Assembly: GCA_030606485.1 (NCBI GenBank)
Contig: JAUWGH010000001.1
Span: 744,001 to 808,000 of the forward strand
Length of the DNA: 64,000 nt
Direction of reading: 5' to 3'
From: Promethearchaeota archaeon
GTDB lineage: Archaea; Asgardarchaeota; Lokiarchaeia; Sigyniarchaeales; SOKP01
Below are positions 8,606 to 56,081 of this stretch, one piece after another (the stretch's first letter is position 1; each line of letters opens with the position of its first letter). Below the pieces are notes generated by a model that made no database searches, had not been told where the DNA came from, and saw only the letters and a program-made list of their open reading frames with translations. The position numbers and the translations under genes are program-made.

Positions 8606-8860
8606 TTATATTCCGCCTGCTTGAGTGGCCATCACTGTAATTACATCCTTTTTGGGATGAATCCCGACTTTGGTAAATTTAAGATTATCAGGAAGAACTT
8701 TTCCTTTAAAAATAAACTGGATTGCTAAGATTGGATTGAGTTTATACTCTCGTTGAACTGTTTTCTTAATTTCTGCTATGCTATTATTTGGGTCTACTTC
8801 TACTAATTTAATTGCTTGGTCTGGGGGTACCCCAGTAAGTCTAAATCTATATTGCGTCAT
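8606..8860 (-). CDS. Ubiquitin-like beta-grasp protein ending in Gly-Gly-Ile
   Basis: An 84-residue protein with the ubiquitin fold order: strand 1 YRFRLTG, strand 2 AIKLVEVDP, helix SIAEIKKTVQREYK, strand 3 AIQFIFKGKVLPDNLKF (compare the ubiquitin LIFAGKQLEDG turn), then VGIHPKKDVITVMATQ as the last strand. The C terminus is AGGI, so Gly82-Gly83 is followed by a single Ile84, as in a modifier precursor that must be trimmed to expose GG. It is not MoaD or ThiS, whose last strands carry FPP/GGG patterns and which sit in cofactor operons. Conjugation to targets is inference. It stands alone on the minus strand with a 244-base AT-rich promoter region upstream; no E1, E2 or RING gene is adjacent. 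Confidence 0.75.
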   Translation of the reverse strand: MTQYRFRLTGVPPDQAIKLVEVDPNNSIAEIKKTVQREYKLNPILAIQFIFKGKVLPDNLKFTKVGIHPKKDVITVMATQAGGI

Positions 8861-48778: not shown

Positions 48779-51079
48779 TTAATTCTTAGTTTTGCTTCGT
48801 ATTTCTTCTATAATAGTGGCATATTTTTCAAGTAGTTTAATTAATTTTTCTTTATCAGGAACTCTTTTTAATTCTTTTTCAAATTTGGGATAATATTTAA
48901 TTAATTTATCATAAAAAGAATTTAGAGATTCTTGTAATTCGTTTTCATTTTTAATTTTCTTAGAAATTGATTTTAAAATATCTAAATATTTTGATTGTGT
49001 TAGACAAGAAGCTAGTTTTTTATAATAATAAATAACGGTTTTTGAATAATCTTCGGGATGGAAATTTATTAAATAATTATCTATATCGAAATCCCAATGC
49101 GGTATAAAGTTTATAAATTTATCATCAGGATTTTCTTTATTGTCTAAAAGATTTAATTCAAGATTTGATTTATTTAATTCCTCTAATAGAGGATACAAAA
49201 CACCTGAACTAACTTTTGTTTCTAATTCAATTATTGGGACAATCTCAGAGATTAAGAATTTATATTCTGGATATTGTTCGGGATTTTCAATCCGATAGAT
49301 ATATTCTTTTTTAATTAATTTAATAATTCTATCCTCAAGAAACTCATCATGCTCTTTTGTAAATGAAACCGTTTTTTCCTTTATAGATTCAGTATGTTTT
49401 TGCTCTGATATTACTTTTTTTGAAAAATTAGTAGAGAGAGATTGAATGAATTTATCTGAAGCTTTCTCTTTATCAATTTTTTTTTGAAGTTGCATTGCAT
49501 CACCAGGCTGTTTTTGAAGGGTTTCTACTAGTTGTTCTGATAGATAATGCCTTGCTTTTTTAGCAGCTTCTCCTTTCTTTTGAAATTTTTCGGTAATTGA
49601 AGTGAATTCAGCATATTTTCTTTCGGGACCTTCCTTTTCTTGTCGTGTTAATACTCTAAAATCAACTTTCTTGTCATCAATTTTACGAATAATTGAATAA
49701 ACAATTCCCTTAGATAATTGCGATGCTTTTATTAATTCTTTTTCAATTAAATCAATTGGAAAGGCTTCACCCCTTCGAATAAATTCATTTCTCAAAATTT
49801 TTAATATTGTTTCCATACTTTTTTCTTCTTCTTTTACAATCTCTTTCTGAATTCGCATAAACATTGAAGTTTCATGAGGTTTTAAGTAATAAACCAAAAT
49901 AGTAAGTCCTAAGAATATTATCATAATAATTGAAATTAAAAATCGATCATGCATTAATAATTCTGAAAACCCACCAATTTCTTGATTTGGAGTGCTAGTA
50001 GCTACAGCGAATCGTGATATGGTTTGTCCTAAAACACAAGCTAAAAAAAACATTATTAAACCGTCTTTTTTAAAGAATAAAATTCGCCATCCCAGAGTAC
50101 CTCCAATTTTTCGTATAATTCTTATTAAAAATATCATTGAAATCAAAAATTCAAAAATAAATAGATACCCAATAATATTTGAGGCTCCACCAAAAGCTCC
50201 TTTTAATGCATCTGATGTTTCTGGTAGAAGAATAGTATATAATGTCACTTGGTAAATTTGATAAAAAAATATGAAAAAAACAATTATAGCAAATGTAAAA
50301 TTATCAAATAATCCCGCTCTTCTGGTTTCTGCTCGCTTCCTAGTAAGAATGAATTCAATAATTATAAACACAATAGTTGTAATCAGTGAAATATATATTA
50401 ATGGCATTACTCTTTTCATTTCAATTAAATAAACTTCAGTTGATCCTATTGGATTTAAAGTTCCCAACAGATCTAGAGTGAGAAAAACAATAAAAGCTCT
50501 AAAAAACCAAGAAATAATTACTAAAAATCCTAAAATTAGAAAAGGAATTAAAAAGATTATGAAATTCCTAAAAATTGAATATTTTGACACTACTTTTGCC
50601 TCAATTTTAGTAGAAAATTTTCTTGAATACGTATAAAATCTTGAACTTTGTAAAATTAGCCAGATCATAGCTAATATTAAAAGAAAGCTCATGTAATTAA
50701 ATTGAAATAGAGTATCTACTAAGGAAAATAGAAAAAACCATCCCGTAATAAGTCCAGAAAAAATTACTATTTGCTTAATAGCAGTATTTTTTTCAAATAT
50801 AAATTGTCTTATTTTATCCACGCTAAATAATATAGAGAGTGAAAAATAAAAAAAAATTAATGCATTTCCAAAAATAAAAGGATCTCCAAACATCACAATT
50901 TGGAAAAAAATATTATCAGGATTATTAATATTAAAAAAAATCATAAAAGAAAAAAACAAAAAAATTCCAAATAACCCCCAAAATTTTTTTCCAAAATAAG
51001 ATTTTGGAGGTTCTTTGCCTTTTACATAAATCTCTTTATTGAAAATGACTCTTTTAAGATTATAATAAATGTTTTTCAT
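48779..51079 (-). CDS. Large polytopic membrane protein with cytoplasmic winged-helix-like tail
   Basis: A 766-residue protein. Residues about 30-415 have about 11 or 12 hydrophobic segments. The rest is soluble and charged. Two parts look like winged helices: about 430-490 (FPIDLIEKELIKASQLSKGIVYSIIRKID, then a basic wing) and about 575-650 (FLISEIVPIIELETKVSSGVLYPLLEEL). The family is unknown to me. A membrane protein tied to DNA-binding-type domains suggests a membrane-linked regulator, but this is inference. Its promoter region abuts cooC. Confidence 0.55.
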   Translation of the reverse strand: MKNIYYNLKRVIFNKEIYVKGKEPPKSYFGKKFWGLFGIFLFFSFMIFFNINNPDNIFFQIVMFGDPFIFGNALIFFYFSLSILFSVDKIRQFIFEKNTAIKQIVIFSGLITGWFFLFSLVDTLFQFNYMSFLLILAMIWLILQSSRFYTYSRKFSTKIEAKVVSKYSIFRNFIIFLIPFLILGFLVIISWFFRAFIVFLTLDLLGTLNPIGSTEVYLIEMKRVMPLIYISLITTIVFIIIEFILTRKRAETRRAGLFDNFTFAIIVFFIFFYQIYQVTLYTILLPETSDALKGAFGGASNIIGYLFIFEFLISMIFLIRIIRKIGGTLGWRILFFKKDGLIMFFLACVLGQTISRFAVATSTPNQEIGGFSELLMHDRFLISIIMIIFLGLTILVYYLKPHETSMFMRIQKEIVKEEEKSMETILKILRNEFIRRGEAFPIDLIEKELIKASQLSKGIVYSIIRKIDDKKVDFRVLTRQEKEGPERKYAEFTSITEKFQKKGEAAKKARHYLSEQLVETLQKQPGDAMQLQKKIDKEKASDKFIQSLSTNFSKKVISEQKHTESIKEKTVSFTKEHDEFLEDRIIKLIKKEYIYRIENPEQYPEYKFLISEIVPIIELETKVSSGVLYPLLEELNKSNLELNLLDNKENPDDKFINFIPHWDFDIDNYLINFHPEDYSKTVIYYYKKLASCLTQSKYLDILKSISKKIKNENELQESLNSFYDKLIKYYPKFEKELKRVPDKEKLIKLLEKYATIIEEIRSKTKN

Positions 51080-52030: not shown

Positions 52031-52085
52031 TAGTAAAAAATTTATATATGAAAATTTGATTTTAGAGTATAGGGAAAAATTTTTT

Positions 52086-52349
52086 ATGAGCGAAGATAAT
52101 TTAAAACTTCAAGAATATGTCAGAAAAGCAATAGAACTCTTGTGTCAAAAGAACTTTTCAGATGTAGTTATATTAAGCTCTTATAAAATCAATTCCGTTT
52201 TACGAGAGTATTTTGGTGTAGATATTAAAGTGGATAGAGTTGGTCGAATGCTTGCGAATATTGCCAAGAAAAATCAATTAAAAAGACTTAAAACAAATAT
52301 TCCTAAATATTCTTTAAAAATCTCTCGTTTATCAAAACTTAAATTCTAG
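52086..52349 (+). CDS. Small basic winged-helix-like protein
   Basis: An 87-residue basic protein beginning MSEDNLKLQEYVRKAIELL and ending in a lysine/arginine-rich tail. Helix ILSSYKINSVLREYFGVDIKVDRVGRMLANIAKKNQL resembles a small winged helix, so DNA binding is likely. A TTG ten codons upstream is also possible, but ATG at 52086 gives a better N terminus. It lies about 55 bases after cooC, and may be co-transcribed. I do not recognise the family. Confidence 0.55.
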   Translation: MSEDNLKLQEYVRKAIELLCQKNFSDVVILSSYKINSVLREYFGVDIKVDRVGRMLANIAKKNQLKRLKTNIPKYSLKISRLSKLKF

Positions 52350-52371: not shown

Positions 52372-53787
52372 TTATATTTTTTTTACTTTCTTAATAGATT
52401 TTTGTAATGTTTCTAATTGAGAGGCTAATTTTTCAGTTTGTTCTTTAGTTACAGATAATTTATCTGAGATATTATTAATTTCCTCATTTAAGATCTCGTT
52501 GAATTTGGTTGATATTGTATTAACTTTCTGATTTATTCCCGATATTGTTTTTTCCGTATTTTCATTTGTATTATTAACAATTTCAGTTTGTTTATTTACA
52601 TCTTGAGAGATTTTTTCTTGAATTTTTTCCAAATCCTCAAAAATTTTTGAATTTTGTTTTATTTTTTCTCCAATTTCATTTATTTTTTGACTAATATTTT
52701 CATTGATAATTTTGACAATATCTTCAACGATAAGATCAATGTTATCATTAATTTCTTTTGTAAGTTCAATTTCAGAATCTAATCTTTCTTGTACTTGGTT
52801 TTTGATTTCCAATTTAAATTCTTCCATTTGAGTTGATAAAGTTTTTTCAAACCATTCTTCTACTTTTTTAATACCTAAATCTATTGAATTCTGCATAATA
52901 GAAATAGTATTAGCTATAAAAGCTGAACTCTTAGAAGTACCAACTGTAATATCATGCGTCCATTTATTTATTTTGTCTTGAAATGTTGGTAAAAAATTGT
53001 CTTTAAGTTCTTGGGTGCCCTTCACAAAACCATCTATAGTAGGCTTTAAGGGAGATTCCTCTTTCATTTCAACTATCTCTCCTTCAGTAGGTTTAGGAAT
53101 TTCTTGAAGGTCTCCAATTTCATCATATTCTTTTATTATAATGGGACTTTCTTTTTGGGATTCTTCAACTAGATTTTTAATAATTTTGAAAAAATCTAAG
53201 GAATCTGGAGGCTCGACTTCTACAACAATTTCATGATAATCACTTTTTTCACCTAATTTATAATTATCTAATCTGAAGGATTTAAACCCTAATGAATCGT
53301 TTTTTCCCATTTGGGAATGATCAAATACAACTGCAAAGGCATCGGGTGTTCCTTCCTTTTGCCAAAATAAATGATTTTTAATATCTGTATTTGTAAAAAT
53401 TAATCCTAATCTTGGGTGGCTATGATACCAACCAATTATAGACATATTCTTTTTATTAGCCTCTTCATCAATAGAAGCAAATTTCTTGTAATCTAGATCA
53501 TTAAATTCGATATCAATACTTGATCCATGATTTATAGGAACAGCTTCATAACAAATTAGATTTTTTCCTTTTTCTGCCTTTTTTCCGATACAAACACCTA
53601 GAACTTCTACATTTTTCTCAAGACCTTCGCTACCGAAGCGTAAAACATGAGAAATCATAGTAATATAAGCATCTGATTTTATTATTACTTTTCCTTCATG
53701 TGAAAAATCTTTATCAACTACTTTATCTTGAGAAAGTCTTTTGCCAGGTGGCTTAAGTCCTTTATCCAGGGGTGGTTCTTGAGACAT
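52372..53787 (-). CDS. MPN/JAMM protein with coiled-coil tail, variant motif (second of pair)
   Basis: A 471-residue paralogue of the gene upstream. The MPN domain (about 30-195) is Rpn11/CSN5-like: catalytic E61 in NVEVLGVCIG, H122 and H124 in GWYHSHPRLG, T132 in place of the usual Ser, and D135. The C-terminal part (about 250-471) is almost wholly alpha-helical, with long heptad stretches. JAMM enzymes cut ubiquitin-like isopeptide bonds. The Ser to Thr change may keep or reduce activity. GGAGGT nine bases upstream of the ATG lies within the end of the first gene, so the two are translationally coupled. No signal peptide or membrane helix. Confidence 0.85.
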   Translation of the reverse strand: MSQEPPLDKGLKPPGKRLSQDKVVDKDFSHEGKVIIKSDAYITMISHVLRFGSEGLEKNVEVLGVCIGKKAEKGKNLICYEAVPINHGSSIDIEFNDLDYKKFASIDEEANKKNMSIIGWYHSHPRLGLIFTNTDIKNHLFWQKEGTPDAFAVVFDHSQMGKNDSLGFKSFRLDNYKLGEKSDYHEIVVEVEPPDSLDFFKIIKNLVEESQKESPIIIKEYDEIGDLQEIPKPTEGEIVEMKEESPLKPTIDGFVKGTQELKDNFLPTFQDKINKWTHDITVGTSKSSAFIANTISIMQNSIDLGIKKVEEWFEKTLSTQMEEFKLEIKNQVQERLDSEIELTKEINDNIDLIVEDIVKIINENISQKINEIGEKIKQNSKIFEDLEKIQEKISQDVNKQTEIVNNTNENTEKTISGINQKVNTISTKFNEILNEEINNISDKLSVTKEQTEKLASQLETLQKSIKKVKKI

Positions 53788-53790
53788 TCT

Positions 53791-55206
53791 TTAAGAACCT
53801 CCTTGATTTTTGTCGTTAATATCTTTCAATTTTTGAATATTATTAGACACTTCATCTAAGATTGAAAGAGTAGAATCTAAAGAACTAATAAGATCGTTTT
53901 GCTTCTTTTTTATTTCATTAATTTCCTTTATTAAAGGTTTTAGAGTTTTTTCTAATTGTTTTTTAATCTTTTCTGCGTTTGAATCTATTTCTTGCACCGT
54001 TTTATTACCTAGTTGATTAATTTTCCTGGAAACCTCATCAATTAATTTAGTATTTTGAATTATATGATTAGAATTATTCTCATAACTAGATTTTAATGAA
54101 GTAAATTTTTCTTTACTGTTATTGATTAATGAATCTGTTTCATTAATTAGTGTATTTATTTGTTCTGTGAATATTTTAGATATATTCGATTCAATAGTCT
54201 CTTTTAATTGGTGAATAGAACTTTTTAATGCATTTTTATTAATATCTAATGTGTCTAATTTATCATCAATATATGTTTCCATATCTCTAAATATGTCCAT
54301 AATTGCAAATTTAGTCCAGGTGTGTAATTCCCTTAGACCATTTGATAAATTTTCCTTTAGAGATATTAGACCTTTTCTAGTTTTTAGATTGATATCAATT
54401 GTTAATTTAGTTGTTTTTTGACCCCATTGGTTTAAATATCTAATTAATGGTTCAAAGAATGAATAAGTAAATTTTGAAATACCATCATTCAATGATTGCA
54501 TTAATTCCATTAAGTTTAAATCAGGTTGTTTTGCCATCATTTGACCTTGACTAGGAATAGAAATTTCTCCAAATATATCTGGAATCTCATTAATTTCTAA
54601 AATAAGAGGTTCTTTTTTATGTATGTTATCTATTAAATTTTTAATTTCATAATAAAATCCAATATTATCAGGAGGTTCTACGATATATTTTACATCATGA
54701 TAACTAGTTGGTATTTCCGTAAAAGATGGTTTATCTAATCGAAAGATTTTAAAACCCATATTTCCTTGCTCCTCCAATAGTTCGTGATCGAAGACAATAC
54801 CAATTGCACTGGGATTTGGATTTTGAAATCCTAACTGATTTATAAGGTCAACTGCTGAGAAAAAAACGCCCAAACCAGGGTGAGAGTGGTACCAACCAAC
54901 GGAAAACCAACCCTTATCAGCAACCTCTGCATCGATACTTGCAAATGATATATAATCTGCTTCAGCAAATTGTACTTCAATTTGACCTCCATGATTTATC
55001 GGAATTGCATCATGTACTATAACATCTTTAATTTCTCCAGACCCTTCTAATTCTCCTAACAATACACCCATGCATTCACTGTAATTATCAGGATCCTTAA
55101 TTTTTGAACCAAACCGTAAAACATGAACAAGCATTTTATAATAAGCTAATGGTTTAATGATTACCTTCGAGTTATCAATGAAATTTTGCTTTTGTGTGTG
55201 TGCCAT
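53791..55206 (-). CDS. Rpn11-like MPN/JAMM deubiquitinase-type protein with coiled-coil tail (first of pair)
   Basis: A 471-residue protein from ATG 55206 (two residues longer from TTG 55212). The N-terminal MPN+ domain has the full JAMM zinc motif: E44 in SECMGVLLGE, H107, H109, S117 and D120 in YHSHPGLGVFFSAVD, as in Rpn11 and CSN5. After an Ile/Pro-rich linker, the last 230 residues are helical coiled coil with no membrane segment. In eukaryotes such domains sit in the proteasome lid or with ubiquitin-like targets. The second MPN gene follows within four bases. Specific substrate and partner are not seen in sequence. Confidence 0.9.
   Translation of the reverse strand: MAHTQKQNFIDNSKVIIKPLAYYKMLVHVLRFGSKIKDPDNYSECMGVLLGELEGSGEIKDVIVHDAIPINHGGQIEVQFAEADYISFASIDAEVADKGWFSVGWYHSHPGLGVFFSAVDLINQLGFQNPNPSAIGIVFDHELLEEQGNMGFKIFRLDKPSFTEIPTSYHDVKYIVEPPDNIGFYYEIKNLIDNIHKKEPLILEINEIPDIFGEISIPSQGQMMAKQPDLNLMELMQSLNDGISKFTYSFFEPLIRYLNQWGQKTTKLTIDINLKTRKGLISLKENLSNGLRELHTWTKFAIMDIFRDMETYIDDKLDTLDINKNALKSSIHQLKETIESNISKIFTEQINTLINETDSLINNSKEKFTSLKSSYENNSNHIIQNTKLIDEVSRKINQLGNKTVQEIDSNAEKIKKQLEKTLKPLIKEINEIKKKQNDLISSLDSTLSILDEVSNNIQKLKDINDKNQGGS
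53797..53802 (-). promoter_or_regulatory. Shine-Dalgarno GGAGGT coupling the MPN pair
   Basis: GGAGGT on the minus strand falls in the final codons of the first MPN gene (GGS then stop), nine bases ahead of the second gene's ATG. The two genes are thus likely translated together. Confidence 0.65.
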
Positions 55207-55412: not shown

Positions 55413-56069
55413 TTAATTGTAATCCTTGAATTCCTTTCCACAACTTGGGCAATGCTTTATCTGAAAACCACAGAAAGGACAAAAAATCTTTCCTAAAGCT
55501 CTTTCTTTTAACTCGTCTGTTTCTGCAGCATCTTTAGATGGAATCTTGGGAAGTTCTTTCTCAGTTGAAATTATTTCAGGAGATTTTTCTTGGATAGTTG
55601 ATTCTTTTTCTACATCATGTTTTTGAGAAACTGCTTTAGCTTTTGTTCTTTGGAGAAATTTTTCTCGTTCTGATAATTCTTCCTTAACCCATCCTTGAGT
55701 TCTAGGCCTTTTTAATTCTGATTCTGGAACCTTCTCTAACTGTGCTTCCTTTACTTCTTGAATTGGGATTATAACTTTCTTCTTATCTTTATTCTCTCTT
55801 GCTTGTCTCAATAAAAATTGAGTTGTTTTCATGATTTGATGAGGATTTATATTTGGGATTGCAACTGTTTTGAGGACCCAACTGACGATACGATTTCCAT
55901 TTGGTGTAATTCCCTCAACATTATCGTAAATATAAGAATCTATAATTGTGTCTCTTCCTTTCATTAATCTAGATGCCCATTTTTCATTAATTTGTCCTAA
56001 CTGTAATCTGTAGGAAGTCCCAGCAATTCCAAGCTGAGAAGTGAGTGGTTCAAAATCTTTTTCAGACAT
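55413..56069 (-). CDS. Unknown protein with C-terminal zinc ribbon, upstream of the MPN pair
   Basis: A 218-residue protein from ATG 56069 (four more from a TTG at 56081). The N-terminal 95 residues look like a compact folded domain (LGIAGTSYRLQLGQINEKW) that I do not recognise. A charged, Pro/Lys/Glu-rich linker follows, and a C-terminal zinc ribbon has CPFC and CPSC knuckles. It is on the same strand as the MPN pair but about 200 bases upstream, so an operon is possible. A role as binding partner of the MPN proteins is speculation. Confidence 0.55.
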   Translation of the reverse strand: MSEKDFEPLTSQLGIAGTSYRLQLGQINEKWASRLMKGRDTIIDSYIYDNVEGITPNGNRIVSWVLKTVAIPNINPHQIMKTTQFLLRQARENKDKKKVIIPIQEVKEAQLEKVPESELKRPRTQGWVKEELSEREKFLQRTKAKAVSQKHDVEKESTIQEKSPEIISTEKELPKIPSKDAAETDELKERALGKIFCPFCGFQIKHCPSCGKEFKDYN

Positions 56070-56081
56070 GATTTTACCCAA

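Follow-up and report, generated by a model that had tools for sequence, protein, structure and literature searches.

A tandem pair of long-tailed MPN proteins in Lokiarchaeia, with a conserved active site beside an eroding one

Lokiarchaea are among the closest relatives of eukaryotes, and in the eukaryotic pairs Rpn11-Rpn8 and CSN5-CSN6 one MPN partner is intact and the other is degenerate. Two adjacent MPN genes, here named A and B, lie in a 64,000-nucleotide stretch of a Lokiarchaeal genome (the window), and a sequence-only reading of this locus had proposed that they form an archaeal parallel to, or precursor of, such heterodimers, with one active and one structural partner. Which of these descriptions fits the pair, and what might a second MPN protein do beside the first?

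Layout and predicted structure of the tandem

Both proteins exceed the cut-off of the Pfam JAB family, and each was found by Pfam and AlphaFold2 to join an MPN domain to a long helical C terminus, as had been described from the sequence (Table 1). Gene A encodes 471 aa from an ATG at 55206, or 473 aa from a TTG two codons earlier, and is 91-93 percent identical to its nearest named relatives, which are Lokiarchaeia. The junction between the genes reads GGA GGT TCT TAA AGA ATG. The GGAGGT noticed earlier is present in the last codons of A, 9 nt before the ATG of B, and the spacing from the stop of A to this ATG is 3 nt rather than the 4 bases first counted. We assembled 52 non-identical A-B tandems, in which the order is always A then B and the gap ranges from -26 to +17 nt (median 3). 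Of the 52 tandems, 31 have a GGAGG in the 25 nt before the start of B, and none has one before that of A. Since start-stop coupling is found across the tandems, we regard it as an old, kept feature.

Table 1. Features of the A-B locus and of other genes considered in the window
Feature	Position	Strand	Evidence
Gene A, MPN+ (JAMM) protein with long helical tail, 471 aa	53791..55206	-	PF01398 6e-14; intact JAMM residues
Gene B, paralogous MPN protein with long helical tail, 471 aa	52372..53787	-	PF01398 8e-12
GGAGGT ribosome-binding site for B, within final codons of A	53797..53802	-	sequence
MPN domain of A (residues about 13-196)	54619..55170	-	AF2 secondary structure; Foldseek
MPN domain of B (residues about 33-210)	53158..53691	-	AF2, pLDDT mostly 80-90; Foldseek
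Single long helix of A (residues 244-451)	53854..54477	-	AF2; hydrophobic period 3.64
Single long helix of B (residues 250-470)	52378..53040	-	AF2, pLDDT mostly 70-92; period 3.56
JAMM motif of A, HSHPGLGVFFSAVD	54847..54888	-	sequence
JAMM-like motif of B, HSHPRLGLIFTNTD (Ser to Thr)	53383..53424	-	sequence
Ubiquitin-like protein ending QAGGI	8606..8860	-	PF00240 4.5e-10; sequence
Conserved 222-aa gene, conserved N-terminal region and C-terminal zinc ribbon	55413..56081	-	family in 27 tandem loci; weak DZR match
Conserved convergent 97-aa gene, downstream of B	52056..52349	+	family in 27 loci
Conserved 766-aa protein, hydrophobic N-terminal half	48779..51079	-	family in 23 loci

AlphaFold2 models each tail as one continuous amphipathic helix of ~210-220 residues. 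Folded alone, B gave a model (mean pLDDT 76.6) with a well-predicted MPN domain, and its top Foldseek matches were Rpn11, CSN5, CsRpn11, and BRCC36. Because A, its stop, and B share one frame, a fused A-B chain could also be folded by reading through the stop of A, with 24 like rows in the alignment. This model has two MPN domains with one long helix each (pLDDT 69, pTM 0.33); Foldseek placed Rpn11 chains first (CsRpn11 TMt 0.84), and Rpn11, CSN5, BRCC36, and CsRpn11 lead for the fused model as they do for B.

The hydrophobicity of both tails in the window has a period of about 3.6, above all 500 shuffles. Over orthologues, the mean period is 3.64 in the A family and 3.64 in the B family, which fits two helices of equal pitch. 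The same periodicity raises another reading, because lipid-binding helices have an 11/3 repeat, to which 3.62-3.64 is closer than to a heptad: instead of forming a paired rod, the tails might be long amphipathic helices that rest on a membrane or lipid and so recruit a deubiquitinase to the membrane. Weak profile matches to apolipoprotein, perilipin, and apolipophorin, together with a conserved membrane-like gene nearby, would be in keeping with this. However, the Pfam lipid-protein matches fall well short of the cut-off, the tails resemble coiled-coil bundles in profile searches as well, and they are >60 percent polar; moreover, a membrane role leaves the decay of the active site of B, described below, unexplained. 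We consider it doubtful that the tails serve chiefly as membrane helices, and the two ideas are not exclusive, as membrane-bound tails are compatible with A-B pairing.

Distribution and ancestry of the pair

In searches of 58 relatives with A and with B, tallied from the match tables, 34 genomes, including that of the window, carried the two genes in identical order and on the same strand. In three further genomes, one of the two genes is truncated by the end of a contig; wherever A is uninterrupted in this set, B is present as well. A full-length A profile run against a 196-genome sample of the phylum recovered only the family of the host and two genomes of a neighbouring family, and the tandem also occurs in one genome of a third family (G038). 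Both genes are absent from G027, a nearly complete genome of the host's own family. Such wide conservation means that the tandem is not a product of chance, and the lack of conservation in related genomes that had been named as counting against the pairing did not occur. In one relative (G004, L093:3-1100), two more short or divergent MPN reading frames lie directly upstream of the A-B pair, which suggests a local expansion.

A tree of the full-length A and B proteins separates the two families with support 99.7. A recent duplication at the species level, another such outcome, is ruled out, as A and B fall on opposite sides of this one branch over all 52 tandems. In a tree of MPN domains, A and B are sisters, with 22 sampled rows grouped at 100/99; nearest to them are single MPN-coil genes of Sigynarchaea-like genomes (96/89), and they stand apart from Rpn11, CSN5, BRCC36, CsRpn11, and Rpn8/CSN6. 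BRCC36 does not join A; it falls with Rpn11/CSN5, on a long branch. The human Rpn8, Rpn11, CSN6, and BRCC36 sequences in this tree match PDB chains letter for letter, and CSN5 is a fragment that agrees with the profile-search stretch. The sole A of the third family (L080) is placed beside B in the domain tree (94/82) and with A in the full-length tree.

Are A and B then the direct ancestors of Rpn11-Rpn8 and CSN5-CSN6? The logic of an active and an inactive partner is shared with the eukaryotic pairs, and the solved structures closest to A and B are those of Rpn11, CSN5, and BRCC36. In addition, a grouping of B with Rpn8 and CSN6 is not rejected by an AU test (p 0.15, not significant, with long branches in play). 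Against such descent, A and B form one group at 100/99 away from the eukaryotic proteins, CsRpn11, and short E2-linked Rpn11-like proteins, the tandem does not extend beyond a few families of Lokiarchaeia, and neither Rpn8 nor CSN6 is among the 60 shown matches of the B profile. CsRpn11 is the best profile match of both A and B. Since the AU test leaves the B, Rpn8, and CSN6 grouping standing, a separate origin rests on branch support, shared tails, and narrow distribution. We regard direct ancestry as highly improbable, and the idea of a precursor to the eukaryotic pairs, or to Rpn8/CSN6, finds no support in the best tree. The idea of an archaeal parallel fares better: on these trees, A and B are most closely related to one another, as sisters from a duplication within Lokiarchaeia that is parallel to Rpn11-Rpn8.

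Hence, we do not place A-B within the BRCC36-Abraxas, Rpn11-Rpn8, CSN5-CSN6, or CsRpn11 families. Its closest working parallel is BRCC36-KIAA0157/Abraxas (BRISC/ARISC), where an active MPN+ protein is likewise joined by a partner of the pseudo-DUB type, a likeness read for A-B from sequence. In BRCC36-KIAA0157, the pseudo-DUB is essential for activity, and post-MPN helices hold the assembly (PMC4579573). In both pairs, each partner has an MPN domain and, C-terminal to it, a helical coil, a likeness of architecture only; by contrast, the A-B tails reach about 210-220 residues in one helix each, and A is a sister of B and does not group with BRCC36. With Rpn11-Rpn8 and CSN5-CSN6, A-B shares the combination of an intact and a degenerate partner and folds that match Rpn11/CSN5 best, but Rpn8 and CSN6 form a group of their own and match each other rather than B, and the degeneration of B is repeated and still under way, not ancient. 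A PF01399 search of the window genome gave matches but no clear PCI-lid partners for A-B; its strongest match (4e-10) is a 788-aa protein on another contig (L243:436-2802) that has zinc-finger-like and repeated winged-helix-like stretches and looks like a winged-helix protein.

CsRpn11 of Caldiarchaeum subterraneum is an archaeal JAMM deubiquitinase, as A is predicted to be; it is a single gene in a ubiquitin operon, monomeric in solution and with a short tail (PMC6043591), whereas A-B consists of two coupled genes with long tails. In open-licence papers, we found nothing on Asgard MPN pairs beyond that report. Finally, short Lokiarchaeal Rpn11-like proteins (about 268-278 aa, beside an E2) are JAB proteins of the same order as A and B and are seen in many relatives, but they have no long rod, are E2-linked, and form a separate group in the tree.

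Active sites and selection on B

The active-site residues E/H/H/S/D are complete in A in 49/49 copies in which all five are readable. In B, only 16 of the 52 orthologues retain E, H, H, and D with Ser or Thr; 12 have the zinc ligands with the catalytic Glu replaced by Gln, Asn, or Ala, and 24 are without a zinc ligand, so that Glu or a zinc ligand is gone in 36/52. When these states are mapped on the full A and B tree, B needs a minimum of 11 independent losses (9 for zinc ligands), provided that no site was regained; the Fitch count stands at 6 state changes overall. This pattern is the signature of a putative active enzyme with a predicted pseudoenzyme partner. The proposed division into an active and a structural partner, and the differing motifs on which it drew, accordingly hold across relatives. 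They hold less well in the window, where the motifs differ little (A, E/HSH/S/D; B, E/HSH/T/D), and in its genus, where B keeps all metal ligands and Glu (E/H/H/T/D in four genomes, E/H/H/S/D in a fifth). Because it reads E/H/H/T/D, B in the window genome may still be an enzyme, and it may be a second one there and in the 15 other tandems that retain ligands and Glu. In one genus (L071 and L079), the JAMM loop of A carries a three-residue insertion (HSHPNLFQHKIFFSPTD), and B there has Gln in place of Glu.

Could B be an ageing duplicate on its way out, kept by linkage only? Its active site decays repeatedly, and it evolves faster than A (mean MPN identity 0.39 in B, 0.55 in A). Between close relatives with dead B copies, however, dN/dS is 0.13-0.32 for B and 0.10-0.28 for A in the same pairs, reading frames are intact, and B is deeply retained across three families. 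A decaying pseudogene is ruled out by these ratios, and a duplicate held by linkage is very unlikely. Purifying selection on catalytically dead copies indicates instead that B is retained for some function. Conservation has shifted within the protein: mean column identity in the JAMM loop is 0.81 in A and 0.49 in dead B, while for the last MPN helix and its continuation it is 0.55 in A and 0.51 in dead B. After the MPN domain, B also has a fixed motif of its own, LQEIP.

The evolutionary distances of A and B are strongly correlated (r 0.95-0.98), also when flanking genes are accounted for (partial r 0.91-0.96). This argues for a tight functional partnership, in which the two proteins may be in contact; a shared rate history can also come from adjacency without binding. 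On a reading without contact, B would be a regulator or ubiquitin binder that acts on its own, and A would be a deubiquitinase working apart from it as a monomer or homodimer, the two sharing an operon and no complex. MPN proteins can act alone, as the monomeric CsRpn11 does in solution (PMC6043591), and B has LQEIP as a motif of its own. Nonetheless, A and B strictly co-occur, their start-stop coupling is conserved, their rates correlate beyond those of flanking genes, and their tails have equal periods; we find separate action unlikely.

Ubiquitin pathway, neighbouring genes, and a model for the pair

The window also encodes a ubiquitin-like protein that runs one residue beyond its diglycine, as a precursor that would need cleavage, and this protein is the likely substrate of the A-B pair. 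Its gene is about 44 kb from A-B, and the E1 and E2 genes are unlinked to the pair: an E2 and an E1-like ThiF gene adjoin each other at L193:9437-12293 (genome C10:380k), far from A-B. In Helarchaeota, a single-copy relative of A/B directly adjoins an E2. Given that the genome carries ubiquitin, E2, and E1-like genes and that this relative sits beside an E2, it is sound to suppose that A would act on ubiquitin. The window genome has five JAB genes, and the short E2-linked Rpn11-like protein is absent among them. Several Helarchaeota loci (L172:7263-8930, L171, L199, and L201) encode an MPN domain after a long N-terminal region, which contains TPR in L172, and before a winged-helix-like region.

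Around the pair, the 222-aa gene family is usually found 100-250 nt upstream of A, and its product is a possible third component of the system. For the 766-aa protein, no Pfam family was matched. Most relatives also have a third MPN gene, usually divergent beside A-B, whose product of about 316 aa carries an HSHPGFKVMMS motif (for example, L083:14558-15631; genome C10:810683). It is followed by genes for a cobalto/Mg-chelatase-like AAA-VWA protein, an ATP-grasp protein, and a Roadblock protein.

We suggest that A and B are probably co-translated subunits of one Lokiarchaeal deubiquitinase. A would be an Rpn11-type zinc isopeptidase, taking off the ubiquitin-like protein and perhaps also maturing it. 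The MPN domain of B would pair with that of A, probably via the first and last MPN helices and parallel tails. As the active site was lost from most B copies and yet B was kept, its own chemistry appears dispensable, and B might mainly stabilise, activate, or place A. The two helical tails, each roughly 30 nm long, could form a rod and in this way tether or oligomerise the enzyme. We infer the physical A:B complex, its substrate, activation by B, and the role of the rod from the evidence above. On balance, we lean slightly towards a stronger form of this model, in which Lokiarchaeia evolved, independently of eukaryotes and with at least 11 site losses, an obligate deubiquitinase heterodimer of an active and a pseudo-MPN protein on a paired rod of ~30 nm.

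Archaea thus seem to have reached independently the active/inactive pairing of the eukaryotic proteasome and BRCC36 complexes. If the model is true, a parallel pair in an archaeal lineage near eukaryotes would show that this design is reachable from one duplicated deubiquitinase, and Asgard ubiquitin systems would contain multi-subunit deubiquitinases. A-B would also offer a natural experiment on the origin of pseudo-deubiquitinases: related genomes carry B proteins that are intact, half-lost, or fully dead, so that the stepwise loss of chemistry from a pseudoenzyme would be directly testable.
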